DNA of 43,928 nt from Polyangiaceae bacterium. GTDB lineage: Bacteria; Myxococcota_A; Polyangia; Polyangiales; Polyangiaceae. Location: positions 1 through 43,928 of the forward strand of contig JAKLKA010000050.1 in NCBI GenBank assembly GCA_023150915.1, written 5' to 3'. Within the stretch, counting starts at the first letter, position 1. Every line of letters begins with the position of its first letter. The notes under the pieces are model-generated. The model saw only the letters and a list, made by a program, of their open reading frames with translations. It was not told where the DNA came from and searched no databases. The position numbers and the translations under genes were made by a program. Of the stretch, positions 1 through 34,690 are shown piece after piece.

Positions 1-177
1 CACGGGCGGCGCCGACGCCGGCGGAGCGGGCGGCGCCGATGCCGGCGGAGCGGGCGCCGATGCCGGCGGAGCGGGCGCCGATGCCGGCGGAGCGGGCGGC
101 GGCGCACCGGGCTGCTGCGCGAGGGACGCCGAGGTCGCAAAAAGCACTGCGAGACCGAGCCGTCGTGCCGCACCCAT
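1..177 (-). CDS. N-terminal part of a secreted Pro/Ala repeat protein (truncated by window edge)
   Basis: The minus strand reads open from an ATG at 177 to the window edge (59 codons, no stop). It starts with a short basic stretch (MGAARRLG), a hydrophobic segment and a probable cleavage site after SLA, which together look like a signal peptide. A low-complexity Pro/Ala/Ser region built on the heptad PAPPASA follows. The start codon overlaps an alternative upstream start of the divergent GH35 gene, so the two genes probably share the short region 178-265 for transcription. The function cannot be read because the folded part lies outside the window. Confidence rests on the signal peptide and the in-frame repeat. 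Confidence 0.6.
   Translation of the reverse strand, partial: MGAARRLGLAVLFATSASLAQQPGAPPPAPPASAPAPPASAPAPPASAPPAPPASAPPV
11..100. repeat. Tandem repeat, four units of 21 or 24 bp
   Basis: Four head-to-tail copies of GCCGAtGCCGGCGGAGCGGGC occur, with unit lengths 24, 21, 21 and 24. Two units carry an extra GGC. All lengths are multiples of three, and on the minus strand they encode a Pro/Ala/Ser heptad just after a signal peptide. This is a coding repeat that can expand or contract without a frameshift. Confidence 0.85.
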
Positions 178-265
178 GTCAGGCACATGCTCGGCCGCGC
201 GCCGCGCGCCGTCAAGCCAGGGTGGATCGGCCGAGACGGTCGCGTTAGCGTCGCGCCTCGCCCTC

Positions 266-2302
266 ATGCACGCCGATCGCCCGCCCTCGCACGCTCGCGT
301 CAAGCTGGTTCCCGAAGGCATCGACGTCGGCGGGCACGTGGTGCCGCTGTTCGCCGCCGCGGTTCACTATTGGCGGCTCGAGCCGGGTGACTGGCGGCGG
401 GCGCTGGATGCGACGCGCAGCCTGGGCTTTCGCCTGATCGACGTGTACGTGCCGTGGAGCGTGCACGAGGTCGGCCCCGGCGCGTTCGACTTCGGGAAGC
501 TGGCCGACGAGCGCGACGTCGCCGCGTTCATCCAGCTGATCGGCGAGCTGGGCCTTCATTGCATCTTGCGTCCGGGCCCGCACATCAACGCCGAGCTGAC
601 CGGCTTCGGCCTGCCCGAGCGCGTCATCTGGGACGCCGACTGCCAGGCGCGGTCACCGCAGGGCAACCCAGTGGTGCTTCCGGTGCCCCCGCTGGCCTTT
701 CCGGTGCCCAGCTACGCCAGCGAGACGTTCCATTCGGAGGTCGCGCGCTGGTTCGCCGCAGTCGGGGCAGAGCTGTCTCGCTTCGTCTACCCCCAGGGGC
801 CGATCGTGCTCTGCCAGATCGACAACGAAGGCGCGCTCTACTTCCGCGACGGCGTCTACGACCAGGACTGGCACCCGGACTCGCTGCGGAAGTACCGGCG
901 TTTCATGCAGTCGCGCTACGAGAAGGTGTCGGCGCTGCGCCGAGCTCACCGCGACGACCACGTGACCTTCGCTCGGCTCGAGCCGCCCAAGCGCTTCGAC
1001 GCTCGGCACGCCGACGAGCTCGCTCCGCACCTGGACTGGGCCGAGTGGCAAGAGCAGATGCTGGCGGACTCGTTCGCCCTGATGCGCGAGCACCTGGCTG
1101 CCGCGGGGTTTGGTAGCCTTCCCACCAGCCACAACTTGCCCCTCTCCGAGGGTGCCACACCGCTGGACCCCGAGCGGGTCGGCAAGGTCGTCGATCTGGT
1201 GGGGCTCGACTACTACCACGGGGCGTCGGCGCCCCAGCGGACCGAGATCGCGCGCCGCACCAGCGAGCTGTCCGAGCGGTGCGCGGCGCGCGGCCACTCG
1301 GCCTTTGCCTGCGAGCTGGGCGCCGGCTTTCCGCCGTTCTTTCCGCCGCTCACCGAGCGCGACAACGCTTTCTCGGTGCTCACCGCGCTGGCCTATGGGC
1401 TGCGCGGCTTCAACGCCTACATGGTGGTCGAGCGCGACCGTTGGATCGGCGCACCCATCGACCCGCGGGGAAAGATCCGGCCCTCGGCCGAGGCCTGGCG
1501 CAAGCTGATCGCGGCCCTCGAGCGCACGCGGTTCGCCGAGCTGCGGCGCGAGGCGGCCGTGCACATCGTGGTGCCGCGCAGCTTCCGCCGGCTCTCGCGG
1601 GTGTGCCACGCGTTCGGCCCGCTGAGCCCGGCGCTGTTCCAGATCTTGGGCGGCGGCGCCCAGGAAGCGTGCTTCGAAGACGAGCTGGGCCTGGGCGCGT
1701 CGGTGGTGATCGAAACCGAGCGCTTCGCGCGGCAGCTGGAGCACGCCCTCGAGCAGGCCCGCATTCCCTGGGCGCTCGTGGGCGGCGACCTGCTCGAGCA
1801 TTCCCTCTCGCGGGCGCGCTGGGTGGTGGTGGCGTCCACCGGCGGCATCGAGCCCGAGCTGCTGGCGACCGTGCGACGTGCGTGGAAGAAAGGGGCGGCG
1901 CTGAGCCTGGGCCCGTATCTTCCGGACCGAGACGCCGCGCTCCAGGCGATGAGCGACCCACCGACCCCGCCGAAGGGCGCGCGCACCGTTCCCGCGTTGC
2001 TCGGGCTGGGCGCCGAGTCGATGGCAGAAGTGGTGGCAGCGGCCCAGAAGTCGCTCGATTTGCCCGTGGTCGCCGCCGCGCCCGGCGAGCTTCTCTCGAC
2101 GGTTCACGTCGATGCCCAGGGCGTTGCGCGGGTGCTGTTCGTGATCAACCCCTCGGCGTGGGCAGCGGAAGCCACGGTCCCGGCAGCGGGGGCGCGCGTG
2201 GCGGTCGACGCGCTCGACGGCGCGCGCTTCGAAGCGCACCACGGCAGTTTCGGACTGCCCGTGAGCGGGCGCTCGGTGCGCATGCTCGAGCTCACTCACT
2301 GA
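266..2302 (+). CDS. GH35-family glycosidase (beta-galactosidase-like)
   Basis: This predicted 678-aa protein resembles glycoside hydrolase family 35. The N-terminal TIM-barrel part has the expected order: strand-plus-loop VPWSVHE, then LRPGPHINAE, then the acid/base region GPIVLCQIDNEG with Glu near residue 188. A second acidic motif, FACELGAGF (Glu near 350), sits where the nucleophile is expected. The C-terminal third is less conserved and probably beta-rich. No signal peptide is visible from the ATG at 266, so it may be cytoplasmic. An upstream in-frame ATG at 176 would add 30 residues that look non-coding and overlap the divergent gene, so I prefer 266. Family assignment is fairly secure; substrate (beta-galactoside or another exo-linked sugar) is inferred. 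Confidence 0.8.
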   Translation: MHADRPPSHARVKLVPEGIDVGGHVVPLFAAAVHYWRLEPGDWRRALDATRSLGFRLIDVYVPWSVHEVGPGAFDFGKLADERDVAAFIQLIGELGLHCILRPGPHINAELTGFGLPERVIWDADCQARSPQGNPVVLPVPPLAFPVPSYASETFHSEVARWFAAVGAELSRFVYPQGPIVLCQIDNEGALYFRDGVYDQDWHPDSLRKYRRFMQSRYEKVSALRRAHRDDHVTFARLEPPKRFDARHADELAPHLDWAEWQEQMLADSFALMREHLAAAGFGSLPTSHNLPLSEGATPLDPERVGKVVDLVGLDYYHGASAPQRTEIARRTSELSERCAARGHSAFACELGAGFPPFFPPLTERDNAFSVLTALAYGLRGFNAYMVVERDRWIGAPIDPRGKIRPSAEAWRKLIAALERTRFAELRREAAVHIVVPRSFRRLSRVCHAFGPLSPALFQILGGGAQEACFEDELGLGASVVIETERFARQLEHALEQARIPWALVGGDLLEHSLSRARWVVVASTGGIEPELLATVRRAWKKGAALSLGPYLPDRDAALQAMSDPPTPPKGARTVPALLGLGAESMAEVVAAAQKSLDLPVVAAAPGELLSTVHVDAQGVARVLFVINPSAWAAEATVPAAGARVAVDALDGARFEAHHGSFGLPVSGRSVRMLELTH

Positions 2303-2438
2303 GCCTCCGCCCGCCGTTCGTCCTGGTCCGACGGGGCACGCGCCGCGTGTCGGCCGTTGTGAGTGCAGAGCACACGCTGACGGCGATCATGCCTCGAGTG
2401 TTTCAGAACGATGCGCAATCGCTGCGCGTACGGCCGCA

Positions 2439-2636
2439 GTGCCCCAGGCACCGGAAGCCGCACCGGCCCCGACACCCACGGCCACGACCGAGACCAAGAA
2501 GGGCCACCGCGTGGCGCCAGGCCCGATGGTCATCGCTCCGCCCAAGGCCACCGCATCGGCACCGGCGCCCGCGCCGGCGCCGAGCCCCACCGCGCCGGCA
2601 ACCAGCAAGGGCCGCGTCTTCCGCGAAGACCTCTGA
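2439..2636 (+). CDS. Possible small Ala/Pro-rich protein
   Basis: This lies in the 410-bp gap between the GH35 gene and yciO. A GTG-started frame encodes 65 residues dominated by Ala, Pro and Thr, with a less biased C-terminus (KGRVFREDL). Third positions are mostly G or C, consistent with coding, but no ribosome binding site is clear and the same frame stays open upstream without a better start. It could be the tail of a decayed lipoprotein or linker-type protein, or chance open frame in GC-rich DNA. Nothing else recognisable is seen in 2303-2712. Confidence 0.3.
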   Translation: MPQAPEAAPAPTPTATTETKKGHRVAPGPMVIAPPKATASAPAPAPAPSPTAPATSKGRVFREDL

Positions 2637-2712
2637 GCGAGCCCACTGCGGCTGGCACACGCGGTACGAAGATTGAGGCCTTCGGGCAAAGCGTGTAAGA
2701 GCGCGCCCCCCC

Positions 2713-3321
2713 ATGATTCTGGAGATCAACCCGGACCACCCGGAGCCGCGCAAGATCCGACGCGCAGTCGACGCGCTCGAGGCCGGCGAGATCATCGCCT
2801 ACCCCACCGACACCGTGTACGGGCTGGGCTGCGACCTGTTCAACAAGAAGGCCGTCGAGCGGCTGTATCAGCTCAAGGGAATGCAGCGCGATCAGAAGCT
2901 TGCCTTCGTGTGCGCCGACATCAGCGACGCCGCCAAGTACGCGGTGATGCACGATCAGGTCTTCCGGACCATCAAGCGCCACCTTCCGGGGCCGTACGTG
3001 TTCATTCTCGAGGCAACCCGCGAAGTGCCCAAGATCGTGCACCTGCCGCGCAAGACCATCGGAGTTCGCATCCCGAACCACGCGGTGCCGCTGGCCCTGG
3101 TGCGCGAGCTGGGGCGGCCGATCATCTCGAGCTCGGCGGCGCGCCACGGCGCCGAGGGCAGCCCCGACCCCCACGAAATCGACATCGAGTTCCCCGGCCT
3201 GGCACTGGTGCTCGATGCCGGGCCCGGTGGCACCACGCCCACCAGCGTCGTCGATCTGACCGGCTCGGTGCCGGTGGTGGTCCGCGAGGGCGCCGGCGAT
3301 GTGTCGGCTTTTGTGGACTAG
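2713..3321 (+). CDS. yciO: YciO-type Sua5/YrdC-family protein
   Basis: This 202-aa single-domain protein belongs to the Sua5/YciO/YrdC nucleotide-binding family, whose TsaC members make threonylcarbamoyl-AMP for tRNA t6A. The N-terminus has the family signature GEIIAYPTDTVYGLGCD, followed by LPGPYVFIL and KTIGVRIPNH. The C-terminal PTSVVDLTG...VVVREGAGDV and the short length without a Sua5 domain match the YciO branch. YciO proteins are conserved but are not proven full substitutes for TsaC, so I call family rather than activity. The gene precedes fdxA on the same strand with a gap of about 100 bp. The ATG at 2713 begins the conserved domain almost immediately. Confidence 0.85.
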   Translation: MILEINPDHPEPRKIRRAVDALEAGEIIAYPTDTVYGLGCDLFNKKAVERLYQLKGMQRDQKLAFVCADISDAAKYAVMHDQVFRTIKRHLPGPYVFILEATREVPKIVHLPRKTIGVRIPNHAVPLALVRELGRPIISSSAARHGAEGSPDPHEIDIEFPGLALVLDAGPGGTTPTSVVDLTGSVPVVVREGAGDVSAFVD

Positions 3322-3421
3322 CGAGCGAAAAAGTGGCCCGAGGCGACCGGCTTTGGATTAAATTCGCCCCCCGAATTCGGTCGCAGGCCATGCCTGCGCC
3401 ACAGCCAGGAGCTGATGTTTC

Positions 3422-3727
<306 letters not shown>

Positions 3728-3736
3728 GCCCGCCGA

Positions 3737-4834
3737 CTACTTCTGCCCGATCGCGATACTGACGTCCGCGATCGACTGGATGCCGAGACGCTGGTCCCCG
3801 CCCCCTGCGGGGATCAGCCCGGCAGCCAGGGTTTGCTTGCTGGTGCCCGAGCGCGCGATGGCCTGGCCCTTGTGCAGTACCAGCTTGGCCTCGGTGGTCG
3901 ACTGGTACTGGTCGAGCTCGGCACCGGGCGGCAGCCCTGGGATCTCGACCTTCTGCGAGACCGAATAGCGCTTGGTGCTCACGCTGAGCGTGAGCTGGTC
4001 GCCGTCCACCTTCTCGAGCTTCACCAGGCGGTAGGCGATGACCTCGGCCCCGCCGGCATTGCCGCGCGTGGTGATCAGCCAATACCCACCGGGGCCGACG
4101 GCCTCTTTGGGAAAGCCAACGGCGGTGGCCTCGAGCGCTTCGGCCACCGCGCGGAGCACCATGTCCAGCTCGGGCGTCGCGCCTTTGGCCAGCTGCTGCG
4201 TGAAGTCCACGCCCACTCCGCCGCCGACCACCGAAAAATCGATCTTGCTGCCCTTCATCCGCGAGAGCTGGGCCGCCAGATCTTTGCCCTGAGCGCCCAC
4301 GTCCCCGGTGAGCTTCACCTCGGTGATCTTGGCGCCGATCGACGTGGAATCGCCCTTGGGCTCGGGCGCCGGTGCCGGCGCCGCCCCGGCCACGGCGGCG
4401 GGTGCCTTGGGTTTCTGGGCCTCGATCATCAGCGAGACCGCGAGCGCGGGCAGCTGCGCGCGCCCCAAGCGCAACGTGACCTCGAAGCTGCCGTTCTGCT
4501 TCCACCCGGGCGCGACCACGCCCGCCAGCACGGCCCGTGGCTCGGCCCCGGCCTCGCCCAGCGCGATCTTGGGCGGCTCGCCGCGCTTCAGCTGGGTGTC
4601 GGCCTTGCCGGCTTCGAAGATGCCATTCTGGGGGGGGCCGTCGTCTGCCGCGCCGCTGGCCCCGGGCCTCTCTCCCTTGCTTCCGGCGGCAGCAACCGCC
4701 TGCGCCAAGTTCGGGTCGACCGCACTGGCCTTGCCCGCGTCCAGATCGGCCGGCTTGCTCTCTTTGGGCTTGTCTTCGCAGCCCAGGGCAAGGCCCAGCG
4801 CGGCCGCCGTGAAAAGTGCTCGCGTCCTCGTCAT
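3737..4834 (-). CDS. Hypothetical lipoprotein
   Basis: This 365-aa protein starts with a lipoprotein signal (MTRTRALFTAAALGLALGC, Cys19 as the lipidation site) followed by an acidic, low-complexity linker. The body has two alternating regions of beta-like sequence, separated by an Ala/Pro-rich linker near residues 145-160 (PAPAPEPKG). I do not recognise a domain. It is divergent from the 960-aa lipoprotein gene at 4893, with 58 bp between starts, so the two may share a control region. It is probably anchored in the cell envelope; role unknown. Confidence 0.75.
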   Translation of the reverse strand: MTRTRALFTAAALGLALGCEDKPKESKPADLDAGKASAVDPNLAQAVAAAGSKGERPGASGAADDGPPQNGIFEAGKADTQLKRGEPPKIALGEAGAEPRAVLAGVVAPGWKQNGSFEVTLRLGRAQLPALAVSLMIEAQKPKAPAAVAGAAPAPAPEPKGDSTSIGAKITEVKLTGDVGAQGKDLAAQLSRMKGSKIDFSVVGGGVGVDFTQQLAKGATPELDMVLRAVAEALEATAVGFPKEAVGPGGYWLITTRGNAGGAEVIAYRLVKLEKVDGDQLTLSVSTKRYSVSQKVEIPGLPPGAELDQYQSTTEAKLVLHKGQAIARSGTSKQTLAAGLIPAGGGDQRLGIQSIADVSIAIGQK

Positions 4835-4892
4835 GACTTCGGCCCCGGTTTACCCGATGGCAGCAGGTTGTCTAGACCTTTAGGATGCGGCC

Positions 4893-7775
4893 ATGCGCAT
4901 CTGGGGCCCGGCACTCGTGTTGCCGCTCGCACTTTCCTGCCGCGACCACCAACCGGATCCGAAGCTGGCGCCGCCGCCCACGTCGAGCGCGCCAGTGCCC
5001 TCCCCGCCCCGCGTGCCCACTCCAGAGTGGATCCCCGTCGACCCGATCAGCCCCCAGAGCGCCCTGGCGCCGACAGCCAGCGACCCGGACGGCGGACAGC
5101 TGGTGCAGGGGCAACGCCTGGGGAAGAGCGGCGCCGCCCCACAAGTCGCCGCGCCACCGCTCATCGGCGGCGCGCGTGTCCCCCGGCACGCCGGTGGCGG
5201 CTTCCTGTTCTGGAGCACGAACGCACTCTACTTCGCCCAGGCGTTCCTCGCGGACCTCGCGCCCATCGTGGCCACGGCTGGCGCGCCCAGCGGCGTCAGC
5301 TTCGGACCGGGTTACGTCGTGGTGCACCAGACCACCGGCGCGCGCTTCACGCTCTCGTGGCCCGCGAAGCGACCGGCGCCCATGCCGGTGGCCGGCCTGA
5401 TCGACGTCGGCACCCTCGCTGACGGTCGGGGCGTGCTGCTGGTCGAGCCGGATCGGGTGCTGACCCGAGGCGCCGGCCAGAAGGCATGGCGGGACGTCAC
5501 CGCCGAAGGCCGAGTCGTCTCGCAGATACATCCGAGCGACGCCGCGCTCTGGCTCGCACGCTCGGATGGCAGCGCGGCGCGGGTGGAGCCCGACGGTTCG
5601 CTCTCGCGCCACGACGCACTGCCGACCGAAGTTCTTCGCCCGGCGCCGAAGAACGACGTGCGATGGCCGCGCTCGGTGAGCGAAACGCCGCTGGTTCGCG
5701 CGGTGCGCCGCGGCGTTTCGCTGGACGACCACACCGCGCTGGTCGAGGTCGCGGGCGCCTTCGCTCGGGTCGAGCTGGGCACGGGGGCGCTGCTCGGCGT
5801 CTCGAGCGCGGTCTTGGCGGGCGCGCGCGAGTGCGAGCTGTTGCCCGTCGGGTCGGACGTGCTTGCGCTGTGCCGCACCAACGACGGCACTCACGTGGTC
5901 ATCGCCCACACCGCCGGCCCGACCCCGACCATCGAGCGCAGTTTCGGCGTGCAAGGCAGCTTCTTCACGGGGAGCCCCGGCACGCTGCTGTTCAGCGGCC
6001 CGTGCGACGCGCGCCCGAACGCGGCGGCGGCGGTCTGCGTGCGGCAGCGCGACGGCTCGTGGCGCGAGCTGGGCGGCGCCTTGCCGACTTCGGCCGACGC
6101 CGGCACCCCCGCGCCGACCATTGCGCGCTGGGTTCCAACCCCCGACGGGGGCGCGCTGGGCCTGGTCGGAGGCGCAGCGTCGGGCGTGTTCGACGCCGCC
6201 ACCGCCGTGTTCACGCCCTTCACGACCAACCCGCGCCCGCAAGAGCACTTGCTCTTCAACCCACCGCACCAGCTGCTGGTGGACGACGTCGCCACGGCAG
6301 ACGATGGGCGCCTGGTGGGTTACCTGGGCAGCTCGTCATTCACGTTGACGCGCGACGGGCAGTTCGAGCGCTCGCCACAGCGCTTCAACTCGCTGCAAGC
6401 GTCGGGGGCGCTGGCGCTGGCCACCGACTCGGACTACCGGCTCTGGCAATCGAGAGACTTCGGGCGGCGCTGGCACGAGGTAGCTCGCCCCCCGGGTTCC
6501 GACGCGCGCCAGGCGCTGCACATCACGCGCTGCTCGCGCGTGGGGTGCGAGCTGTCCGGGTGGTTTCGGCTGGGCTTCCGCAGCAGCGAGCCGCGGCCAA
6601 CGCAGCTCGGCGTGGCCGAGCGCCCGCCGTCGGCGGTGCCCCCGCGGCTGCCGCGCCTCTCGTGCCAGCGCACCTCGCCGCCGCGAACACGCTGGGTGAC
6701 GCGGACGCGCGGCGCAGACGGCACGCTGACCGAAGAGTTCGACTTCGGCGCCAGGAAGGTGAGCGGCCGCGAGGGCTCGCTGGCAGGCATCATCCTCAGA
6801 CCCGCGGCGATCTCCGACGAGCTTTCTCTGGGCGCCACGCTGGTCGAGCCCGACAGCGCCGACTCGGGCGCGGCGGGCTTTCGCCAGGCCGTCGGGCGCG
6901 CTCGCAGCATGCGCTTCGTGGAGCTCTTGGGTGATCCAAAGGTCGTCGAGAGCCGATTCGCCTGGCAAGACGTCCTGACCCGCGCGGCGCGCGAGTCCAC
7001 TGACGGCACCAGCGGGATTGCGACCGACGAGCGCAGCTCGGTGCCGGTGATGGGCGACCGACCCTTCAGCACCGCCGGGGTCTTGATGATCGATCCGAGC
7101 GGAGTGCTGGTGTGGTTCCGAGCGGGGCAGGCCGCGCAGGTCATGGCGCTGGGCCGCGAGAACGCGGGCTTCAATCCGCAAAGCGCGCTCACCCAAGGCA
7201 AAGACGGGCTGGTGGTCTTGGCCGAGGACGACAGCTGTGCGGCTCGAGTGATCTCGCTCACCTCGGCGGGGCCGCGCACGCTGCTCGAGCTGCCGCCGCG
7301 CGGACGGCGCGGCGCCTGCCCAGCGAACCCCGACGCCCTCGCCCGGCTCGACGACGACGGCTTCGCGGTGCTGCGCATGCCGGCCGCTGCGCCACCCTCG
7401 ACGGACGATCCGGCGCTCTTGCTCACGCCGCGGACCCTGCCGGTATCGCTGGCTGCGTGGTCGACGCTCGGCCCGTGCGCTGCAGATGCCAAGGGCCCGC
7501 GGGCGACGGTGGCGGTCCGGAATCGCTGGCTCGAGCTGGACGCGCCGGGCCTGGCTTCGACCGGCGACGCCTTCTTGCTGGCGCACGTCCGCTGGACCGA
7601 GACCCGCGTGTGCCTCGAGGCAGTGGCCATCGAGGCGCCGTCCGTCCCGATCGGCGATCAAGAGCTGCCGACCAGCGCGGTGGTGCGGTTCGGCCCCACG
7701 CCCCGCGCCGATCGGCGGGGCTTCGCGCTGGGCGCCGAGCACACCGAAGACCTCGCTTGCCGCCTTGCCCCGTGA
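4893..7775 (+). CDS. Large lipoprotein, probable beta-propeller-like repeats
   Basis: This 960-aa predicted lipoprotein begins MRIWGPALVLPLALSC, with Cys16 as the lipidation site, then a Pro-rich linker. The body is rich in short strand-turn units with recurring Asp, Gly and Trp, and one segment (QSRDFGRRWHEV) resembles the Asp-box (SxDxGxTW) found in BNR/sialidase-type propellers. No catalytic set can be identified, so propeller architecture is an inference. The stop codon directly abuts the stop of the convergent penicillin-binding protein gene. It diverges from another lipoprotein gene and is probably surface or periplasmic. Confidence 0.75.
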   Translation: MRIWGPALVLPLALSCRDHQPDPKLAPPPTSSAPVPSPPRVPTPEWIPVDPISPQSALAPTASDPDGGQLVQGQRLGKSGAAPQVAAPPLIGGARVPRHAGGGFLFWSTNALYFAQAFLADLAPIVATAGAPSGVSFGPGYVVVHQTTGARFTLSWPAKRPAPMPVAGLIDVGTLADGRGVLLVEPDRVLTRGAGQKAWRDVTAEGRVVSQIHPSDAALWLARSDGSAARVEPDGSLSRHDALPTEVLRPAPKNDVRWPRSVSETPLVRAVRRGVSLDDHTALVEVAGAFARVELGTGALLGVSSAVLAGARECELLPVGSDVLALCRTNDGTHVVIAHTAGPTPTIERSFGVQGSFFTGSPGTLLFSGPCDARPNAAAAVCVRQRDGSWRELGGALPTSADAGTPAPTIARWVPTPDGGALGLVGGAASGVFDAATAVFTPFTTNPRPQEHLLFNPPHQLLVDDVATADDGRLVGYLGSSSFTLTRDGQFERSPQRFNSLQASGALALATDSDYRLWQSRDFGRRWHEVARPPGSDARQALHITRCSRVGCELSGWFRLGFRSSEPRPTQLGVAERPPSAVPPRLPRLSCQRTSPPRTRWVTRTRGADGTLTEEFDFGARKVSGREGSLAGIILRPAAISDELSLGATLVEPDSADSGAAGFRQAVGRARSMRFVELLGDPKVVESRFAWQDVLTRAARESTDGTSGIATDERSSVPVMGDRPFSTAGVLMIDPSGVLVWFRAGQAAQVMALGRENAGFNPQSALTQGKDGLVVLAEDDSCAARVISLTSAGPRTLLELPPRGRRGACPANPDALARLDDDGFAVLRMPAAAPPSTDDPALLLTPRTLPVSLAAWSTLGPCAADAKGPRATVAVRNRWLELDAPGLASTGDAFLLAHVRWTETRVCLEAVAIEAPSVPIGDQELPTSAVVRFGPTPRADRRGFALGAEHTEDLACRLAP

Positions 7776-10121
7776 TCAGAAGGGCGGCAGCTCGGGGCTC
7801 GGACCCGCTTCGGGGCTGACGCCAGCATCCGACTCGGTGGGCGGTGGTCCGGCCTGCATCGCCTCGGGGTCGACCGGGGTCCCTGCGTCCACCTCGGCGG
7901 GCGCATCCACTCCGGCGTCGGCCACCTCGGTGGGCGCCGTGCCCTCCAGAAACAGCTCTTCTCGTGCGTCGTCTTGATCGGCGCGCGCCAAGAGCCCGCT
8001 GGCGGGGTCGATGCGGACCGCGACGATGCCTGCGGGCCGCGGGAAATCGGTGGCGGGCTTCTTGTCGTGCGCGGCCTTCATCAGCTCGATGAAGCCGGGC
8101 AGCGCGGTGGTCGCCCCCGACTCTCCCCACCCGAGCGGCAACGCGTCGTCGAACCCCACCCAGACCGCGCACACCAGGTCCGTCGAGTACCCGACGAACC
8201 ACGCATCTTTGGCCTCGTTGGTCGTGCCGGTCTTCCCGGCCAGCGGGCGGCCGAGCGCGAGCGCCCGGGTCGCTGTCCCCTCTTTGACCACGCTGGTGAG
8301 CAAGTGAGTGATCAGGTACGCCTCGTCTTCGCCCATCACCCGTCGCGAAGGGGGCGGCGCCGGCAAGCTCAACGCTTTGCCATCGGGCCCGACGATCTTG
8401 GTCACCAGCACGGGGGCCGCGAATTCGCCGCCGCTGGCGAAGGTGGCATAGGCGTTGGCCGCCTCGAGCGGGGTGATCTCGTAGGCCCCCAGCGCCAGGC
8501 TGGGCGTCGGCTCGAGCTTCGATTCGATGCCCGCGGCTCTGGACCAGCTCACCACACCCTCGGCGCCGACCTCGGTGAGCAAGCGCTCGGCGGCCGCGTT
8601 GTCACTGCGCGCCAGCGCGGTGCGGACGCTGATCTTCCGGGCCTCGAGCTTGCCGTCACGCGAGGCTGGCAAATCGAGCAGCGTGGCCGCGGTGAAGCGC
8701 TTGCCGTGCAACGCGTAGCCATAGACGAAGGGCTTGAACGCGGAGCCCGGCTGTCGGCGCGCGCGGGTGGCGCGATCGAGCCCCCCCGCCACGCCTTCGT
8801 AGCTGCCGACCAGCGCGAGCACGTGCCGGCTTCGCGGCTCGATGGCCACCAGCGCGCTCTCGGGCCCGAGCTCGAGCCGGGCAGCGACCGGCTCGTCGCC
8901 CTCGGGCAGCGCGGGGACGCTGGCCCTGAGCAGGGCCCCTTCCTTGGTGAACTCGCTCGGGGGCACGTGCTTCGGGTTGAAGCGCTCTTCGTGCGAGAGC
9001 TGCACGCGGCCGATCACCGAGCCCAAAAGCACGTCGATGGTCCCGGCCTTGTCGTCCACCCGCACGACCTTGCCCGCCACGGCGTGGTGCGGGCGCGGGG
9101 CGCCTTCGAACGGCGCGCCGAACAAGCGTCGCTTGGTGGCGGTGTGCGGCGGCTCCAGCTTCTGCCGCTCGGCGTAGCGCAGCAGGTTCTTGCGCACGGC
9201 GCCCCGCGCGGCCGCCTGCACCGCCGGGTCGATGGTGGTGGTGACCGTGAACCCGCCCCGCCGGGCGCGCTCGCCGGCCAGGCTCTCGAGCAACTTGCTC
9301 ACATGAGCGACCACTTCCGGGGCCAGCTCCGACTCACCCTCGGACGCGGGCGCCAGCCGCAGGGGCGCCTCCGACGCTTCTTGGTGCAGCTCGGGGGTCA
9401 CGAATCCCTTCTGAGACATCTGTCCGAGCACGTAGCGGCGGCGCTCGGCCGCGCCGGCCGGGTTCTTGCGCGGTGAATAGCGCTCGGGCGACGCCACCAG
9501 CCCCGCCAAGAGCGCCGCCTCGGGCAAGGTCAGCTCTTTCGCCTTCTTGCCGAAGTAGAAGCGCGCCGCCTCTTCGATCCCGTAGCGGCCGTGCCCCAGG
9601 TAGATGTGGTTCAGATAGAGCGCGAAGATCTCGTCCTTGGTCAGGTGTTGCTCGAGACGCCGGGCCAAGATGGTCTCGCGGATCTTGCGTCGATAGGTGC
9701 GCTCCGAGTCGAGCAGCAGGTTCTTCACCACCTGCTGCGTGATGGTGCTGCCGCCTTGCACGGTGCGGCCAGCGCGCAGATTCGCGACCAAGGCCCGCAG
9801 CATGCCGAAGTAGTCGAGCCCCTGGTGCTCGTAGAAGCTGGCGTCTTCGGCCGCCAAGAACGCCAGCTTGGCCACGTCGGACACCTCGGCCAAAGGCACC
9901 ACCGTGCGGCGCTCGGTGAACAGGCTGGCCAAGAGCGAGCCATCGCGGGCAAGCACCCGCGTGACCTGAGGCGGCGCGTACCCTGCGCGCAGCTGCTCCA
10001 CGCTGGGCAGGTCGGCCTCGTGGTAGCGAATCACGGCGAAGACGCCCACGGCGCCCAGGGCCGAGAGCGCGACGGCGATCAGCGCCAGTCGTTTCAGCCA
10101 GTGTGCGATCCGCCGGAGCAT
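7776..10121 (-). CDS. Class A penicillin-binding protein (PBP1A family)
   Basis: This bifunctional murein synthase polymerises lipid II and cross-links the stem peptides at the inner membrane. A membrane anchor spans about residues 11-31. The GT51 transglycosylase domain shows AEDASFYEHQG (catalytic Glu92), GGSTITQQVVKN and the RKIRE motif. The transpeptidase domain has all three active-site motifs: S460xxK463 in GSAFKP, SDN at 506-508 and KTG at 630-632. The last 60 residues form an Asp/Pro/Ala-rich tail. At 781 aa the length is normal. A clear ribosome binding site (AAGGAAGG) precedes the ATG. It follows a Ser/Thr kinase gene by 76 bp on the same strand, which suggests shared expression. 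Confidence 0.95.
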   Translation of the reverse strand: MLRRIAHWLKRLALIAVALSALGAVGVFAVIRYHEADLPSVEQLRAGYAPPQVTRVLARDGSLLASLFTERRTVVPLAEVSDVAKLAFLAAEDASFYEHQGLDYFGMLRALVANLRAGRTVQGGSTITQQVVKNLLLDSERTYRRKIRETILARRLEQHLTKDEIFALYLNHIYLGHGRYGIEEAARFYFGKKAKELTLPEAALLAGLVASPERYSPRKNPAGAAERRRYVLGQMSQKGFVTPELHQEASEAPLRLAPASEGESELAPEVVAHVSKLLESLAGERARRGGFTVTTTIDPAVQAAARGAVRKNLLRYAERQKLEPPHTATKRRLFGAPFEGAPRPHHAVAGKVVRVDDKAGTIDVLLGSVIGRVQLSHEERFNPKHVPPSEFTKEGALLRASVPALPEGDEPVAARLELGPESALVAIEPRSRHVLALVGSYEGVAGGLDRATRARRQPGSAFKPFVYGYALHGKRFTAATLLDLPASRDGKLEARKISVRTALARSDNAAAERLLTEVGAEGVVSWSRAAGIESKLEPTPSLALGAYEITPLEAANAYATFASGGEFAAPVLVTKIVGPDGKALSLPAPPPSRRVMGEDEAYLITHLLTSVVKEGTATRALALGRPLAGKTGTTNEAKDAWFVGYSTDLVCAVWVGFDDALPLGWGESGATTALPGFIELMKAAHDKKPATDFPRPAGIVAVRIDPASGLLARADQDDAREELFLEGTAPTEVADAGVDAPAEVDAGTPVDPEAMQAGPPPTESDAGVSPEAGPSPELPPF

Positions 10122-10197
10122 GCTCGCCTTCCTTCATGCCAAGGCGCGACCCATACCGACAACAAAACGCACCGCCCGCCACCGGGCATTCCCGGCC

Positions 10198-16413: not shown

Positions 16414-16558
16414 GCCGGCAAAAACTGCGGCGGCGGCCCCGCGGCCCGGCGAGCGGTTGGGGGGGGCTGGCGCACTCGAAGGGCCGGACTTAGGTTCCAA
16501 ACCATCGGCGCCCGTTGGGGCCGCAGAGTGTCGCACCCATCCCCGCCCAACCCCCGCT

Positions 16559-16602
16559 CGTCGGGCAGTCGAGCGCAACGAGAGTCGCGTTTTCGCCCGA
16601 CG
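16559..16602. other. Inverted repeat, 8-bp arms
   Basis: CGTCGGGC at 16559-16566 and GCCCGACG at 16595-16602 are perfect inverted repeats separated by 28 bases that include a short TTTT. It lies in the 286-bp region between the convergent thiolase and HEAT-repeat genes and could help end thiolase transcription. In GC-rich DNA such arms may also occur by chance. Confidence 0.35.
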
Positions 16603-16643
16603 CCCCCAGCGCGGCGCCGATACTAACTCCCACCCGAAAGCAC

Positions 16644-16680
16644 CACGGCCCGGCCCCGTCAGCGACGAGGTCGGGCCGTG
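16644..16680. terminator. Strong hairpin between convergent genes, probable bidirectional terminator
   Basis: CACGGCCCG (16644-16652) pairs perfectly with CGGGCCGTG (16672-16680). The inner part continues the stem (a G-T pair, then CCCCGTC against GACGAGG with one mismatch), leaving an AGC loop. The total stem is about 17 pairs. It is followed by TCTTCTGT on the plus strand and GTGCTTTC on the minus strand, so the T-tracts are weak. It lies about 20 bp after the stop of the HEAT-repeat gene, which fits termination there. Confidence 0.6.
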
Positions 16681-16699
16681 TCTTCTGTCGGACCTGCGC

Positions 16700-17626
16700 T
16701 CAGATGCGACGCAGGGCGATGGCGGCGGCGTCCCGAACGAACTGGTTGGGGTCGCTCTCGGCGGCCTTCACGGCAGTCTTGGCTGCCGGGTCGGCGATCT
16801 TGCCCAGAGACGAGACCGCTGCGGCGCGCACCGCGGGGTCGGACTCGGTGGCGGGCGAGGTCAGCGCGATCAGCCCGGCCACCGCGTCTTTGGCCCGCAG
16901 CGTGCCGAGTGCCTCGGCCGCGCGCTTGCGAACCAGCGGCGACTCGTCCGAGATGCGCTTCACCACCGCGGCCGTGCCGGTGAAGACGTTGACGCGGGTC
17001 GAGGCATAGAGGGCCTCCAGCCGGACGCTCTCGTCCTTGTCACCGATGGCGAGAGCCAGCTCGCCGTTCGGGCCCTGGCTGTTGATGCGCCAGAGGGCGT
17101 GGGCCGCCGCCTTGCGGACCTTGGCCGACGGATCGGAGGTGGCCGCCTTGGCGATCACCGGGACGCCGGGCGCGATCAGGAACTCACCCAGGGCCTCGAC
17201 GGCGTAGGCGCGCTTGTTCTCGCTGGCGCCAGCGTCCGTCGCGGTCTTGAGGGTCTGTTCGTAGACCTGACCGGGTCCGAAGACGCCCAGGATGCGGCGC
17301 CTCAGCCACCAGGCGCTGATCTCGCGAGTACGAGAGTGTGAGTCGTAGATCAGCTTGGAGACGATCGGGATGCAGTCGAGGCACTCCGTCTTCTCGCCCT
17401 TCTCGAGTCGCGCCCAGATCTCGGTGGGGGCGAGCTCCCCCACTCCGATGTTGCGGATGTCGGCAGCCGACGTCGGGCTCTCGAGCGAGGCCGGGTCGAG
17501 GTTCTTGTAAACCTTCGAGCGGCCGCTCAGGGTGTTCTTCGGAGCAGAGTCCGCGATGACAGCGCCGGAGACGAGCAGAGTGGCTCCAGCGAGGAGTGCG
17601 CCCAGGGTCGTACGAATGGTCTTCAT
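16700..17626 (-). CDS. Exported HEAT-repeat protein, partner of the diheme lipoprotein
   Basis: This 308-aa protein begins with a signal peptide (MKTIRTTLGALLAGATLLVSG). Residues about 95-308 consist of alpha-helical HEAT-like units of some 30 residues (for example SAKVRKAAAHALWRI, SPLVRKRAAEALGTL, DPAVRAAAVSSLGKI, FVRDAAAIALRRI). The N-terminal part carries Cys82 and Cys85 (ECLDCIP) without the His needed for c-type heme, so they may form a disulfide or metal site. It lies 23 bp after the diheme lipoprotein gene with its own ribosome binding site, so the two form an operon. HEAT repeats usually bind protein partners; I infer a periplasmic scaffold. A strong hairpin follows the stop. Confidence 0.85.
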   Translation of the reverse strand: MKTIRTTLGALLAGATLLVSGAVIADSAPKNTLSGRSKVYKNLDPASLESPTSAADIRNIGVGELAPTEIWARLEKGEKTECLDCIPIVSKLIYDSHSRTREISAWWLRRRILGVFGPGQVYEQTLKTATDAGASENKRAYAVEALGEFLIAPGVPVIAKAATSDPSAKVRKAAAHALWRINSQGPNGELALAIGDKDESVRLEALYASTRVNVFTGTAAVVKRISDESPLVRKRAAEALGTLRAKDAVAGLIALTSPATESDPAVRAAAVSSLGKIADPAAKTAVKAAESDPNQFVRDAAAIALRRI

Positions 17627-17649
17627 GGCTTTCTCCGTTGCTCCTCAGC

Positions 17650-20010
17650 TCACTTGTAACCGCCGCCAGCGAGGGGGTCGCTGCCGAATGGCTTGAATCC
17701 AGTGTTCTGGCGGGCGTAGTACTGGCCGCCGATGTCGATGGCGCGGATCAGCGCGGTGCGCTCTTCGCGGGTCAGCGTCACACCCTTGTCTTCGGGGTGA
17801 AGCGTGCGAGTGCCACCCTTGACGCCCGGGTCGCTGAAGGGCTCACCCAGCTTCCACGCCGTCTTGTTCGGGTCCTTGGCCGACACCATGTTGATCTTCT
17901 CGATCATCACGCTGTTGCGCGCGTCGCTCGGGACTGCCCAGGCCGGCGGAACGGTGCCGGTGACCTGCATGTCGAGCTTCGTCCCGACTTCCATGCCCGC
18001 GGGGTAGAACAGCGACACGTAGCTCGCCGGGTAGGTGGCGACCTTGTTGTCGTACATCACCGTGATGGGCGTGGTGCTGAGGTCGAGCCGCGGGATCTGG
18101 TAGGGCGTGGTCTCGCCGGTCAGCGTGTTGCTCATCGTGACGGTGTAGTACTCGGTGGTGCCGGCGTTGTGGCAAGTCGCGCACTTGGCATCGAGGATCT
18201 TCTGGATCTCGTTGCCCTCGAAGCCCGCGTCGGCCTTGTACCAGGGGTACTCTTGACGCTTGGCGATCGCCTTGTTGAAGTTCATCGGGTGATCCGCCTT
18301 GCTCGGGTCGCCCTTGCCGGCCGCGGTGGTCAGCGCCTGAGCGCCCGGCTTCACGGGGGCCTTGCGGCTTTCGTGGCAGCCACCACACACGCGGTCTTCG
18401 CCCGGCATCGCCTGGATCCACAGGGTCTGGTTGCGGATCGCGAGCTCGAACTCGTCGACGGCCTGGAGGTGGATCGGCACGTAGGGCGGGACGGCCGCGA
18501 GCCACGAACCGTCGTCGTAGACCTCGGCTTCGCCCAAGATGGCGCCGCCTTCGGACATGGTCAGGCCGAACATCGTGACGCCGGTGGCGCCCTCGCTCGA
18601 GAAGCCCTCGATGATGCGCACCTTGACGGCCTGCTTCAGGGCCTCGTCCATCGGCGTGCTCTTGACGAACTGCGCGCCCTCGACGCTGTCGCCGTGGACC
18701 GCCGCCAGCGAGGTCTGCTTGATGTCGATCGAGCCCAAGACCGCGGGAACGGTGGAGTCCGGAGTGTCCTGGATCGAGCCGATGATCGGCGGCGCGGCCC
18801 GCTTCACCACCGGCTTCGCGTAGATCTCCCAGGTGCCTTCGTAGTCTTTGACCAGCTGGTTGGTGCGAGTCTGCGGGTCGTAGATGTAGACGCCGAAGTC
18901 CGGCGGGGTCTGCGAGAGCTCGTTCAGCTCGTTGACGAAGCCCTTGGCCCAACCGGTGAGGATGCGACCGTCCGGCAGCATGGTCGGCGCGCGGTAGCGA
19001 CCCACCGGCGAGGGGTCACGGCCCGTGGGCACGGCCTCGCTGAGCACGGTGTACTCCGGCTCTTCCTCGTAGAAGGCCGCCGGGTTGTCGGGGTTGCGGG
19101 CGTCGATCAGCACCAGCGCGCCAGCGTGGTTCGGCTGCTGGCGGTCGGCGGCCACCGCGATGAACATGTTCGCCGTGTTGGTCTCGACACCCTGCACCAG
19201 CGAGTTCGACGGCTTGCCGTGCTGGCCGCTGACTGCCGTCATCTGAGTGCAGTCCGGGTTGGCGGCAAACAGCTTCGAGTCGTTGACGTTCTCGAGGTGC
19301 TCCCAGCGGGTGAAGCCGACGCGACCATCTTGCATCGCGAACGGGCCAACGGTGTGCGACAGGTTCTGCGAGCACAGCTTGCGGTCGGCATCGCCACCAG
19401 ACACGGTCACGAACGCCAGCTGCGACACCTGCCGGCTGTGGTTGTACTCGTCGGCGCGAGTACCCATCTCGGTGTAGCCCTGGTTGGTGACGAACGCGAT
19501 CTTGTCGCCGGGGATCCAGGCCGGCTGAATGTCGTCCTGGTCGCCGAAGGTGAGCTGGTGGATCTCGAACTTGCCATCGTCGTTGGGCTGCAGCGCCGCC
19601 CAGTAGAGGTGGTACGAGTCGCTGCCGCTCTGCTTCATCGAGAACACGATCTTGGTGCCCTCGAAGTTCAGGTCCAGGCCGCCGATGTCGGCCGTCTTGA
19701 AGTCCTCGATGATGTTGGCGGTGTCACCCGTCGACAGGTTCAGGACCTCGAGGCGCCCGCCGGGGACGAAGCGGTCGTAGTCCAGAACCTGGCCTTCGCC
19801 ATCGGCCACGTGGACGTTCCACGAGCCATCCTCGTTCTGCGACATCGTCTGGCGCACCGCGTAGACGAGTTGCTTCACGTTCTTGATTGCGGGGCCATCA
19901 CTCTCTTCCCCCTTGTCGCTGGAGCAGCTCGCTGCGGTCAGACCGAGCGCTACCAGGAAGGGGAGGGTGAGGGCGCGAACCACGCGACGACGGGAAGAGC
20001 TCTGAGCCAT
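17650..20010 (-). CDS. Hydrazine-synthase-alpha-like diheme c-type lipoprotein
   Basis: This 786-aa exported protein has a lipobox ending at Cys29 (LTAASC). Residues about 45-400 show TolB-like propeller features (VFSMKQSGSDSYHLYW, QLTFGDQDDIQPAW, GRYRAPTMLPDGRILTGW). A middle domain follows that resembles the one named after hydrazine synthase subunit alpha. Two c-type heme motifs are visible: C542xxCH546 (VCGGCHESR) and C610xxCH614 (KCATCHNAG). A good ribosome binding site (GGAGG) precedes the ATG. Proteins of this architecture occur widely in bacteria without anammox, so hydrazine synthesis is not implied; outer-membrane or periplasmic redox function is inferred. It is the first gene of an operon with the HEAT-repeat protein. 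Confidence 0.8.
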   Translation of the reverse strand: MAQSSSRRRVVRALTLPFLVALGLTAASCSSDKGEESDGPAIKNVKQLVYAVRQTMSQNEDGSWNVHVADGEGQVLDYDRFVPGGRLEVLNLSTGDTANIIEDFKTADIGGLDLNFEGTKIVFSMKQSGSDSYHLYWAALQPNDDGKFEIHQLTFGDQDDIQPAWIPGDKIAFVTNQGYTEMGTRADEYNHSRQVSQLAFVTVSGGDADRKLCSQNLSHTVGPFAMQDGRVGFTRWEHLENVNDSKLFAANPDCTQMTAVSGQHGKPSNSLVQGVETNTANMFIAVAADRQQPNHAGALVLIDARNPDNPAAFYEEEPEYTVLSEAVPTGRDPSPVGRYRAPTMLPDGRILTGWAKGFVNELNELSQTPPDFGVYIYDPQTRTNQLVKDYEGTWEIYAKPVVKRAAPPIIGSIQDTPDSTVPAVLGSIDIKQTSLAAVHGDSVEGAQFVKSTPMDEALKQAVKVRIIEGFSSEGATGVTMFGLTMSEGGAILGEAEVYDDGSWLAAVPPYVPIHLQAVDEFELAIRNQTLWIQAMPGEDRVCGGCHESRKAPVKPGAQALTTAAGKGDPSKADHPMNFNKAIAKRQEYPWYKADAGFEGNEIQKILDAKCATCHNAGTTEYYTVTMSNTLTGETTPYQIPRLDLSTTPITVMYDNKVATYPASYVSLFYPAGMEVGTKLDMQVTGTVPPAWAVPSDARNSVMIEKINMVSAKDPNKTAWKLGEPFSDPGVKGGTRTLHPEDKGVTLTREERTALIRAIDIGGQYYARQNTGFKPFGSDPLAGGGYK

Positions 20011-20105
20011 GGGTTTCCTCCGAGGGGCCTTGCCCCGCCCATCCCAAAAGCAGAATCCAGGCCAAGCAGAAACATCGAGGAAACCAGGTAGTCCATTCGC
20101 CCACC

Positions 20106-32856: not shown

Positions 32857-33540
32857 GTGTTCGCGGCAACCCTGTTCGATTTCAACGGCGTGCTCGTCGA
32901 TGACGAGGCCGTCCATCTCGCCGCGTTTCGCGCGACGCTCGCGCCGCGCGGCATCGCGGTCGACGAGCGCACGTACTTCGAGCGTTACATCGGCTTCGAC
33001 GACGTCGGCGCGTTCAGCGCGATGCTGATGGACGCGGGCCGCGACGCGACGCCGGCACTGGTGGCCGAGCTGGTGGACGCCAAACGCCCGCTCTATCTCG
33101 AACGCGCTCGGGCGGGGCTCGCGCTGTTCGCCGGGGCCAGCGAGCGGGTGTGCGCCTGCGCCGCCCACGGACCGGTGGGCGTGGTGAGCGGTGCGCTTCG
33201 CGACGAGATCGAGCTGGGGCTTGGGCTGCTCGGCGTGCGTGACCGGGTGAGCTTCATCGTGGCAGCAGAGGACACCACGCGCTGCAAGCCCGACCCCGAG
33301 GGCTACGAGAAGGCAGTGGCGCTCTTGCCGGGGGTCGAGCGACGGCGCGTGCTGGTGATCGAGGACTCGCTCGCGGGCGTGCGCGCGGCCAAGGCCGCCG
33401 GGCTGACCTGCGTGGCAGTGGCCCACAGCTACCCCGAAGCAGCCCTGCTCGAGGCCGGCGCCGACGCAGTGGAGAAGACCATCGCGGACCTCACGGACGA
33501 CCTGCTCTCGGCGGTCGCAGCGAGGCTCGTTGGTGCGTGA
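32857..33540 (+). CDS. HAD-family phosphatase, beta-phosphoglucomutase-like
   Basis: This 227-aa HAD hydrolase has motif I as DFNGVLVDDE, where the second Asp of the common DxD is Asn. Motif II lies in VGVVSGALRDE, motif III in CKPDPEGYEKA and motif IV in VLVIEDSLAGVRAAKAAG. The four-helix cap sits after motif I, which places it near PGM or phosphoglycolate-type members. A GTG at 32857 was chosen because the fold starts right after it; TTG 32827 is an alternative. The start of the GH113-like gene overlaps the end of this one by 8 bp, suggesting coupled translation. Confidence 0.85.
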   Translation: MFAATLFDFNGVLVDDEAVHLAAFRATLAPRGIAVDERTYFERYIGFDDVGAFSAMLMDAGRDATPALVAELVDAKRPLYLERARAGLALFAGASERVCACAAHGPVGVVSGALRDEIELGLGLLGVRDRVSFIVAAEDTTRCKPDPEGYEKAVALLPGVERRRVLVIEDSLAGVRAAKAAGLTCVAVAHSYPEAALLEAGADAVEKTIADLTDDLLSAVAARLVGA

Positions 33541-34690
33541 GCTGGCCCTGGCCTTGGTGCTGGCGGCGGGCGCGGCCCGCGCGGCGCCCCTCGATCGCGC
33601 AGCGCTGCCCCCGCGCGCCACCGGCTGGCAAGACAGCGGCCTGGGTGCGATCCGCGGCGTGACCATCGGCCCCATCGAGAGCGCGCTGCACCCCGACAAG
33701 GGCTATGGCAGCGCGGCCTGCGCCGCGTCGCTGTCCGAGGCGCGGCGAATGGGCGCCACGTGGGTCAGCCTGACCCCCTTCGGGCGCGTGTGGGATCTGG
33801 CACCGACCGGTGTTTCACCGACGTTCGAGCTGGACCACGCCGAGAACCGCGTGGCCGTTCGCCGCGCCATCGAGCAAGCGCACGCACAGGGCCTGAAGGT
33901 GTTGCTGGTGCCCCACCTGTGGGTCGAGACCGGCGGCTGGCGGGCGCTGATCGATCCCGGCGACGACGCGCGCTGGGCGCTCTGGGCCGCGAGCTATCGC
34001 GAGTTTCTGCTGGGCTGGGCCAAGCTCGCGGCAGAAACCGGGGTCGAGATGCTCTCGGTCGGCGTCGAGCTCAGAAGCTGGCTGACCACCGCGCGAGCGC
34101 CCAGCTTCTCGGCCATCATCCGCGACGTGCGCGGCGTGTACCCGGGCCTCCTGACCTATGCCGCGAACTGGGACGACGCCGACCGCACGGTGATCTTGGG
34201 CGAGCTGGACGTGATCGGGATCAACGCCTTCTTCCCGCTGGCGCAGAAAGAGGGCGCGCCGCGCGCCGAGCTGATGCAGGGCGGCCGCGACGTGGCGAAC
34301 CGGGTCGCGGCGCTGGCCAAGAGCTGGAACAAGCCGGTGATGTTCACCGAGTTCGGCTACACCACCCGGCCGAACCCCGCGATCAAGCCCTGGGAGTGGC
34401 CCGACGGGATGAGCAACGTGGTGGTGGACGAGCTGGCGCAGGCCGAGGCGTACTACGCGCTGCTCTCGGCCTTCGTGGACGAGCCGACCTTTGCCGGGTT
34501 CTTCGTGTGGCGCCTGTACGCCGACCCTCACGACATGTCGCAAGAGGCCGAGTGGGGCTTCTCGCCCCGCGGCAAGGTCGCGGAGCTGGTGCTCCGCGAC
34601 GCGTTTGCCGCACATTGGGCGGGCGACGGCCCGCGCGCGCTGGCCACCGCCACGATTCGGCTCGGCGCCGAGCACATCGGCCGGTACTGA
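33533..34690 (+). CDS. GH113-like glycoside hydrolase (secreted)
   Basis: This 385-aa protein begins with a signal peptide (MRELALALVLAAGAARA). The catalytic barrel resembles GH113, a family known for endo-beta-mannanases. Visible signature parts are LVPHLWVETGGW, SVGVELRSW with the acid/base candidate Glu179, VIGINAFFPL and VMFTEFGYTTRPNP with the nucleophile candidate Glu273. An aromatic-rich C-terminal region (GFFVWRLYADPHD) fits a substrate groove. GTG 33533 was chosen; TTG 33530 is an alternative. It is coupled to the HAD gene and convergent with a lipoprotein gene 4 bp away. Substrate is inferred. Confidence 0.78.
   Translation: MRELALALVLAAGAARAAPLDRAALPPRATGWQDSGLGAIRGVTIGPIESALHPDKGYGSAACAASLSEARRMGATWVSLTPFGRVWDLAPTGVSPTFELDHAENRVAVRRAIEQAHAQGLKVLLVPHLWVETGGWRALIDPGDDARWALWAASYREFLLGWAKLAAETGVEMLSVGVELRSWLTTARAPSFSAIIRDVRGVYPGLLTYAANWDDADRTVILGELDVIGINAFFPLAQKEGAPRAELMQGGRDVANRVAALAKSWNKPVMFTEFGYTTRPNPAIKPWEWPDGMSNVVVDELAQAEAYYALLSAFVDEPTFAGFFVWRLYADPHDMSQEAEWGFSPRGKVAELVLRDAFAAHWAGDGPRALATATIRLGAEHIGRY

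Follow-up and report, generated by a model that had tools for sequence, protein, structure and literature searches.

A predicted diheme lipoprotein of the HZS-alpha family and its HEAT-repeat partner in a Polyangiaceae genome: a two-gene derivative of a conserved three-gene module

What role does a relative of the alpha subunit of hydrazine synthase (HZS) play in a member of the Polyangiaceae, and which proteins accompany it? The question is raised by two adjacent minus-strand genes on contig JAKLKA010000050.1 (assembly GCA_023150915.1), positions 1–43928 of which were analysed as one stretch (hereafter, the window; 43,928 nucleotides). The first of them (gene 1, 17650–20010) encodes a predicted 786-amino-acid (aa) diheme lipoprotein resembling the HZS alpha subunit (HZS-alpha), and the second (16700–17626) encodes a 308-aa exported HEAT-repeat protein with a conserved CxxC motif (hereafter, the HEAT protein). 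The original prediction, made from the DNA sequence alone, described a two-gene system; both open reading frames (ORFs) lie at the coordinates predicted, on the minus strand, but the usual unit contains a third gene (gene 3), encoding a larger lipoprotein of the HZS-alpha family. The reading that we favour, with some reserve, is that the three genes constitute a conserved Polyangia-type module making an envelope-anchored multiheme redox complex, and that the pair in the window is what remains of it at this locus.

Linkage of the three genes in Polyangia

Gene linkage was assessed in a phylum sample of 377 genomes, where gene 1 was counted above 300 bits, the HEAT gene at E below 1e-35 and gene 3 at E below 1e-100. 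Gene 1 is present in 42 of the 377 genomes, all of them in the class of the window according to kinship labels; the HEAT gene occurs in 40 of these 42 genomes and gene 3 in 41, and neither occurs in any of the other 335. The only gene 1 genome without gene 3 is G039, in which the contig carrying gene 1 is cut. The HEAT gene directly follows gene 1 in 39/42 genomes, at a distance of 21–195 bp by profile bounds, and the three genomes without readable adjacency (G039, G372 and G136) are cut there by contig ends; in G136, the HEAT gene was found near the start of another contig. This linkage is far beyond chance. A survey of co-occurrence had been set beforehand as the test that could refute the pairing, and the pairing came through it; a dedicated partner, as proposed originally, is supported by this adjacency, while scaffolding is a role that the HEAT protein may have. 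Matches omitted before counting include those to gene 1 under 300 bits (six genomes, whose best E values range from 3.8e-11 to 9e-17, and weak second matches), those to the HEAT protein weaker than E 1e-35 (at least 94 further genomes, E up to 1e-15, with only parts of the repeats covered among the matches listed) and the weak gene 3 matches of G066 (1.6e-78) and G152 (5.6e-69). The one search not confined to the phylum, a contig scan sensitive to close relatives only, gave two loci.

Gene 3 directly follows the HEAT gene in 33 of the 36 genomes in which this spot is readable, the copies of G051, G335 and G389 among the 33 being cut by contig ends; contig ends make the spot unreadable in six genomes (G004, G023, G039, G169, G372 and G386). 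Gene 3 is missing from this spot in three genomes, namely that of the window, its congener G002 and G054, and all three carry it elsewhere. Since gene 3 follows the HEAT gene in most relatives and the copies of the window genome are unlinked, the two-gene arrangement in the window is a derived form of the three-gene module. The site that gene 3 occupies in most relatives corresponds here to the 286-bp gap (16414–16699) between the HEAT gene and a presumed thiolase gene, where a tblastn search with the protein of one relative (G001) did not reveal a remnant of gene 3. Two full unlinked gene 3 paralogues are encoded on contigs C224 and C184 of the window genome; in a FastTree tree, both fall into a clade made up of unlinked paralogues, with a local support of 1.0, and the copies in the operons of G001, G022 and G282 stand outside it. 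Other unlinked copies (G032, G043, G054 and G204) are placed elsewhere in the tree, which indicates that unlinked copies arose more than once. A loss of function following the loss of gene 3 at the window locus was considered and rejected, since two full paralogues are retained.

Several further observations touch the distribution of these genes. One of the unlinked copies (L088, G000:C224, within the open frame 6863–10159) comes after ORFs in 1–7008 whose products we take to be subunit I of a cytochrome oxidase, an SCO-like protein and a cytochrome b bearing Fe-S motifs, and a respiratory link of this copy is possible. At locus L061 (G054:C107), the match of the HEAT protein (gene at about 1702–2469) stops at profile position 243 of 306, and the locus lacks gene 3; the module in G054 is possibly decaying. 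The gene-3-like proteins of G066 (G066:C95:26145-28553) and G152 (G152:C91:46959-49298) lie outside the class, in genomes with neither a gene 1 match above 300 bits nor a HEAT match below 1e-35, and they are a possible outgroup of the module. Two further PF18582 proteins of the window genome, L002 (G000:C78:7168-7422) and L003 (G000:C32:21968-22153), in open frames of 952 and 962 aa, are remote from gene 1 as well as from gene 3.

Conserved motifs of the three proteins

Conservation was examined among 59 relatives, the window genome included, 28 of which have a full or near-full gene 1 (above 500 bits) and 30 of which match it at E up to 0.001. The gene 1 alignment holds 28 of 30 sequences (dropped were the truncated L068 and L040, which shares its genome with L034), the HEAT alignment 22 of 24 (without L040 and the shortened L061) and the gene 3 alignment 20 of 21 (without the distant relative L069). 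The HEAT genes of L052 and L062–L064, missed or cut short in gene calls, stood outside the HEAT alignment list, and their motif columns were checked separately. A check of motif columns covered 25 loci, 18 of them new (L090–L107) and 7 earlier, with gene 1 in 25/25, the HEAT protein in 22/25 (not in L067, L068 and L099) and gene 3 in 17/25 (one partial); the totals of distinct sequences are 47 for gene 1, 44 for the HEAT protein and 35 full linked copies for gene 3.

The gene 1 protein opens with a signal-peptide-like stretch ending in TAASC29, which we take to be a lipobox, so that the protein is classed as a lipoprotein; Cys29, the predicted lipidation site (codon 19924–19926, minus strand), is invariant in 28/28 aligned orthologues. 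A Pfam search with the 786-aa protein gave PF18582, the HZS-alpha middle domain, as the sole match above cut-off (51.4 bits, gathering cut-off 26.6), and this domain matches 28/28 orthologues at E up to 0.01. The CxxCH motifs at residues 542–546 (18373–18387, minus strand; middle domain) and 610–614 (18169–18183, minus strand; cytochrome-c-like domain) are kept in 47/47 sequences (the 28 of the alignment plus 19 others), and the diheme lipoprotein with an HZS-alpha middle domain is confirmed in these respects. A weak cytochrome-c match covers the second heme of the window protein, and weak matches among the 28 orthologues include Cytochrome_CBB3 (17/28) and Cytochrom_C (7/28). With two CxxCH motifs in an exported protein, gene 1 is assigned to the c-type cytochromes; heme attachment is predicted and is plausible because the window genome encodes cytochrome-c-assembly proteins (PF01578, three matches), ResB not being found in it. 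The propeller-like region predicted originally, here placed in the N-terminal part, is suggested by alignment to HZS-alpha and to the PD40-matching gene 3 family, not by a structure.

Both genes of the pair are under purifying selection, dN/dS being 0.07 (L034) and 0.25 (L041) for gene 1 and 0.06 (L034) and 0.19 (L041) for the HEAT gene, which indicates that both reading frames are in use. Codon scoring was trained on five window genes including this pair and was not used as independent evidence for them. An 831-aa antisense ORF (17596–20091, plus strand) overlies the lipoprotein gene; given the conservation of the protein on the minus strand and the purifying selection acting on it, this ORF was judged to be open by chance in G+C-rich DNA.

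A search of the Protein Data Bank (PDB) with the gene 1 protein revealed hydrazine synthase alpha (5c2v/5c2w, E 7.7e-6) as the only match at E up to 1, and the family profile likewise found HZS-alpha as its only match at E up to 0.1 (E 4.6e-17). The profile alignment consists of five collinear pieces spanning chain residues 48 to 767, where only the piece at 335–561 is significant alone (i-Evalue 9.8e-9), the others having an i-Evalue of 3 or more. According to published accounts of HZS-alpha, Tyr591 replaces the CxxCH histidine as the axial ligand of heme alphaI, that histidine is a zinc ligand, and heme alphaII has two His ligands, His772 being the distal one (PMC12607021, PMC12758564). At the position of Tyr591 (His+4), Tyr is found in 0/47 gene 1 sequences, so the alphaI chemistry is not kept. 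The zinc co-ligand Cys303, which some anammox bacteria lack according to PMC12758564, falls in a region that none of the aligned pieces covers. His738 (codon 17797–17799, minus strand) is the only invariant His past the second CxxCH in 28/28 orthologues and is present in 45/45 readable sequences, those of L068 and L099 being cut; by hand count on the profile alignment, it aligns with chain residue 745, which is His772 at a numbering offset of 27 that rests on His587 and Tyr591 standing at chain positions 560 and 564. H238 (kept in 47/47 sequences) and H514 (46/47) are candidate ligands of heme I.

The HEAT protein has a signal-peptide-like start and repeats from about residue 120 to 308, with HEAT_2 matching in three stretches (91.6 bits, cut-off 27.7), in agreement with the exported HEAT protein originally proposed. 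Its motif C82-L-D-C85 (17372–17383, minus strand) is followed by Ile, in line with the lack of a heme His noted originally; both Cys residues are kept in 44/44 sequences looked at, and His follows the motif in 0/22 of the subset checked for it. The motif lies within the conserved block LExGExxECxxC ... AWWLRRR, ahead of the stretches recognised in known structures: the best stretches of all 34 PDB matches listed start at profile position 122 or beyond. This CxxC may form a disulfide of structural use, bind a metal or act in thiol-redox chemistry, and in the last case the HEAT protein would be an assembly factor.

Gene 3 encodes a protein of about 1,000 aa, predicted to be a lipoprotein, with C23 invariant in 20/20 sequences. 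HHalign indicates homology of genes 1 and 3 across the propeller and middle domain (probability 99.7%, E 1.3e-26), and the Pfam matches among the 20 members include PD40 (18/20) and HZS_alpha (7/20). Four Cys-His motifs follow one another in the order CX6-8CH, CX4CH, CX4CH and CXXCH, with Cys, Cys and His present in 20/20 aligned sequences, in 15/15 further full copies and in 13/13 unlinked or contig-edge copies, including both of the window genome. The spacing of the first motif is 8 in 15/20 and 6 in 5/20 sequences, and that of the two CX4CH motifs is 4 in 20/20. Some authors include CX4CH among the heme motifs (PMC5566968).

Possible function of the module

In the reading that we favour, gene 1 would provide a diheme HZS-alpha-family lipoprotein, gene 3 a larger one that carries a single CxxCH besides three Cys-His motifs of wider spacing, and the HEAT protein a soluble exported adaptor that joins the two lipoproteins. 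The putative bis-His heme II of gene 1 (H614/H738) would relay electrons, and heme I (H546), in the middle domain, is a candidate substrate site or second relay site; the c-type cytochrome pool might exchange electrons with the cell surface or the periplasm. The chemistry is probably a redox reaction other than the making of hydrazine.

Several points weigh against this reading. Gene 3 is off-locus in the window genome, G002 and G054, and for that reason the three proteins need not form a strict three-subunit complex. The AlphaFold model of gene 1, built on three alignment rows (window, L034 and L035), has a mean pLDDT of 26.5, and that of the HEAT protein is confident only from about residue 161, with a dip at 181–190, so that about the first 160 residues are of low confidence. 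The match of H738 to His772 falls in a short, weak piece (i-Evalue 3) with a gap nearby, H514 is replaced by Arg in relative L094, and support for CX6-8CH as a heme motif was not found. Nor was any conserved neighbour naming a substrate or electron partner found at the module loci. Nitrous-oxide reductase (PF18764) occurs in 13/28 genomes with the module against 6/31 without it, a weak association (Fisher p 0.049, without correction and with kinship ignored) that gives a hint at most; CCP_MauG (PF03150), found at E up to 0.001 in 54/59 relatives, does not set the module genomes apart.

A more specific proposal, which we regard as possible and put forward tentatively, is that the module is a hitherto undescribed, clade-specific envelope enzyme with up to six c-type hemes on two divergent HZS-alpha-type lipoproteins bridged by the HEAT protein, transforming a small molecule, possibly a nitrogen oxide, at the propeller/middle-domain heme. 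If true, the HZS-alpha fold would be a general redox platform, with hydrazine synthesis as one special case.

Less likely than the favoured reading is a module that is no enzyme, in which both lipoproteins act mainly in structure or binding, their propellers binding a ligand, a protein or a surface, and the hemes serve only electron transfer or stability. The large propeller-like parts with their many invariant residues, observed in the gene 1 alignment, and the PD40 matches of most gene 3 proteins fit such a role, and no catalytic signature of a named enzyme was found in gene 1 (Pfam, NCBIfam) or gene 3 (Pfam); on the other hand, every sequence looked at keeps the Cys and His residues of its heme motifs and, where readable, H738.

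It is unlikely that the HEAT protein is instead a dedicated assembly factor, whose CxxC keeps the heme Cys of the lipoproteins reduced or whose repeats present the apoproteins to the heme-attachment machinery, especially for the CX4CH and CX6-8CH motifs of gene 3. The invariant CxxC inside a conserved block and the non-canonical Cys-His spacings of gene 3 are consistent with such a factor, as are weak matches of the HEAT protein to NblB and CpcE, HEAT-type handlers of Cys-linked tetrapyrroles; however, these matches fall well short of their cut-offs (NblB 32.8 bits where 300 are required, CpcE 25.1 where 330 are) and probably reflect generic HEAT repeats, and a thioredoxin-like domain is absent from the Pfam matches of the HEAT protein.

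That gene 1 encodes a functional hydrazine synthase or a close relative making N-N bonds is hardly credible: PF18582 and the overall collinearity with HZS-alpha speak for it, but the score against the hydrazine synthase alpha equivalog NF052339 is 46.5 bits where the cut-off is 800, Tyr is never found at His+4, and no beta-gamma gene (propeller plus CCP/MauG) was found beside the locus with PF03150 as a proxy, the beta-gamma profile itself not having been searched, the only PF03150 match of the genome lying on contig C39. Judged by the tests made, gene 1 is not a hydrazine synthase, and a redox complex of three proteins remains the reading that we prefer.

Flanking features and comparison with known systems

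The 23-bp spacer between gene 1 and the HEAT gene (17627–17649) was predicted correctly, as were the ribosome-binding sites of the GGAG type before both starts, GGAGG (20017–20021) for the lipoprotein gene and GGAGA (17632–17636) for the HEAT gene, both read on the minus strand. The strong hairpin predicted past the HEAT gene stands only in part: a G+C-rich hairpin is present there (16644–16680, minus strand) and the 93-nt fold is stable (-45.5 kcal/mol), but 9/200 dinucleotide shuffles fold equally well or better (z -1.9), and a terminator scan found no T-tailed terminator at it. The pair is flanked on the opposite strand by genes that presumably encode the thiolase and a HisIE-like protein and by a response regulator gene (family scan); lying on the opposite strand, these were not counted as module members. 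Upstream genes of similar size recur in class-level relatives; in L092 and L094 they resemble what we take to be MutS and a SPOR-domain protein, and they were not counted as further co-transcribed partners. Elsewhere in the window, a 960-aa ORF with a lipoprotein-like start (4893–7775, plus strand) remains without a Pfam match (E up to 0.001), and two genes (176–2302 and 33530–34690, both plus strand) encode glycoside hydrolases of families 35 and 113, respectively.

The original prediction regarded the pair as a candidate for an undescribed system, and this holds with a restriction. The HZS-alpha domain family is already known, as are homologues beside beta-gamma genes (PMC12758564), the anammox enzyme having formerly been thought to have no homologues elsewhere, as that paper recounts; its main text contains no occurrence of Myxococc, Polyangi, Sandaracin, Haliangi or HEAT repeat. 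No description of the three-gene arrangement was found in the literature searched, as judged by titles and abstract openings, and to that extent the combination of two HZS-alpha-family lipoproteins with a HEAT protein between them is new; at the same depth, no tested function of non-anammox HZS-alpha relatives was found. The strict linkage and the fixed partner provide a defined set of proteins for joint expression.

Known HEAT-repeat proteins (PF13646), such as alphaRep designs, a phycocyanobilin lyase subunit and NblB, share the tandem repeats seen at residues ~120–308 of the HEAT protein, which adds a signal peptide and the conserved N-terminal block with the CxxC. The alpha subunit of hydrazine synthase of Kuenenia stuttgartiensis (5c2v/5c2w) has the same order of parts as gene 1, namely a propeller-like part, a middle domain with CxxCH and a C-terminal cytochrome c with CxxCH, and the two match in the C-terminal stretch LTxxER...D-G-Q and, by a weak local alignment, in a His lined up with His772; in contrast to it, the gene 1 protein is a predicted lipoprotein without Tyr591, and its partners are a HEAT protein and a second HZS-alpha-family protein instead of beta-gamma. 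The non-anammox HZS-alpha homologues described as clades I–IV (PMC12758564) resemble gene 1 as HZS-alpha-like heme proteins, without Tyr591 in clades I–III, with no function assigned in that account and with another conserved heme-protein gene alongside. As reported there, these homologues adjoin fused beta-gamma genes, and clades I–III also adjoin FG-GAP/CRTAC1 genes; clade I has the alphaII site without His772 (Hagglund et al. 2025, PMC12758564), and clades II and III lack the alphaII site. Unlike clades I–IV as described, the Polyangia protein is paired with a HEAT protein and a large second HZS-alpha-family lipoprotein. It also retains a His that aligns, in a weak local piece, with His772; this conserved His, whose counterpart is reported absent from clade I, is relevant to the descent of hydrazine synthase from older heme proteins.

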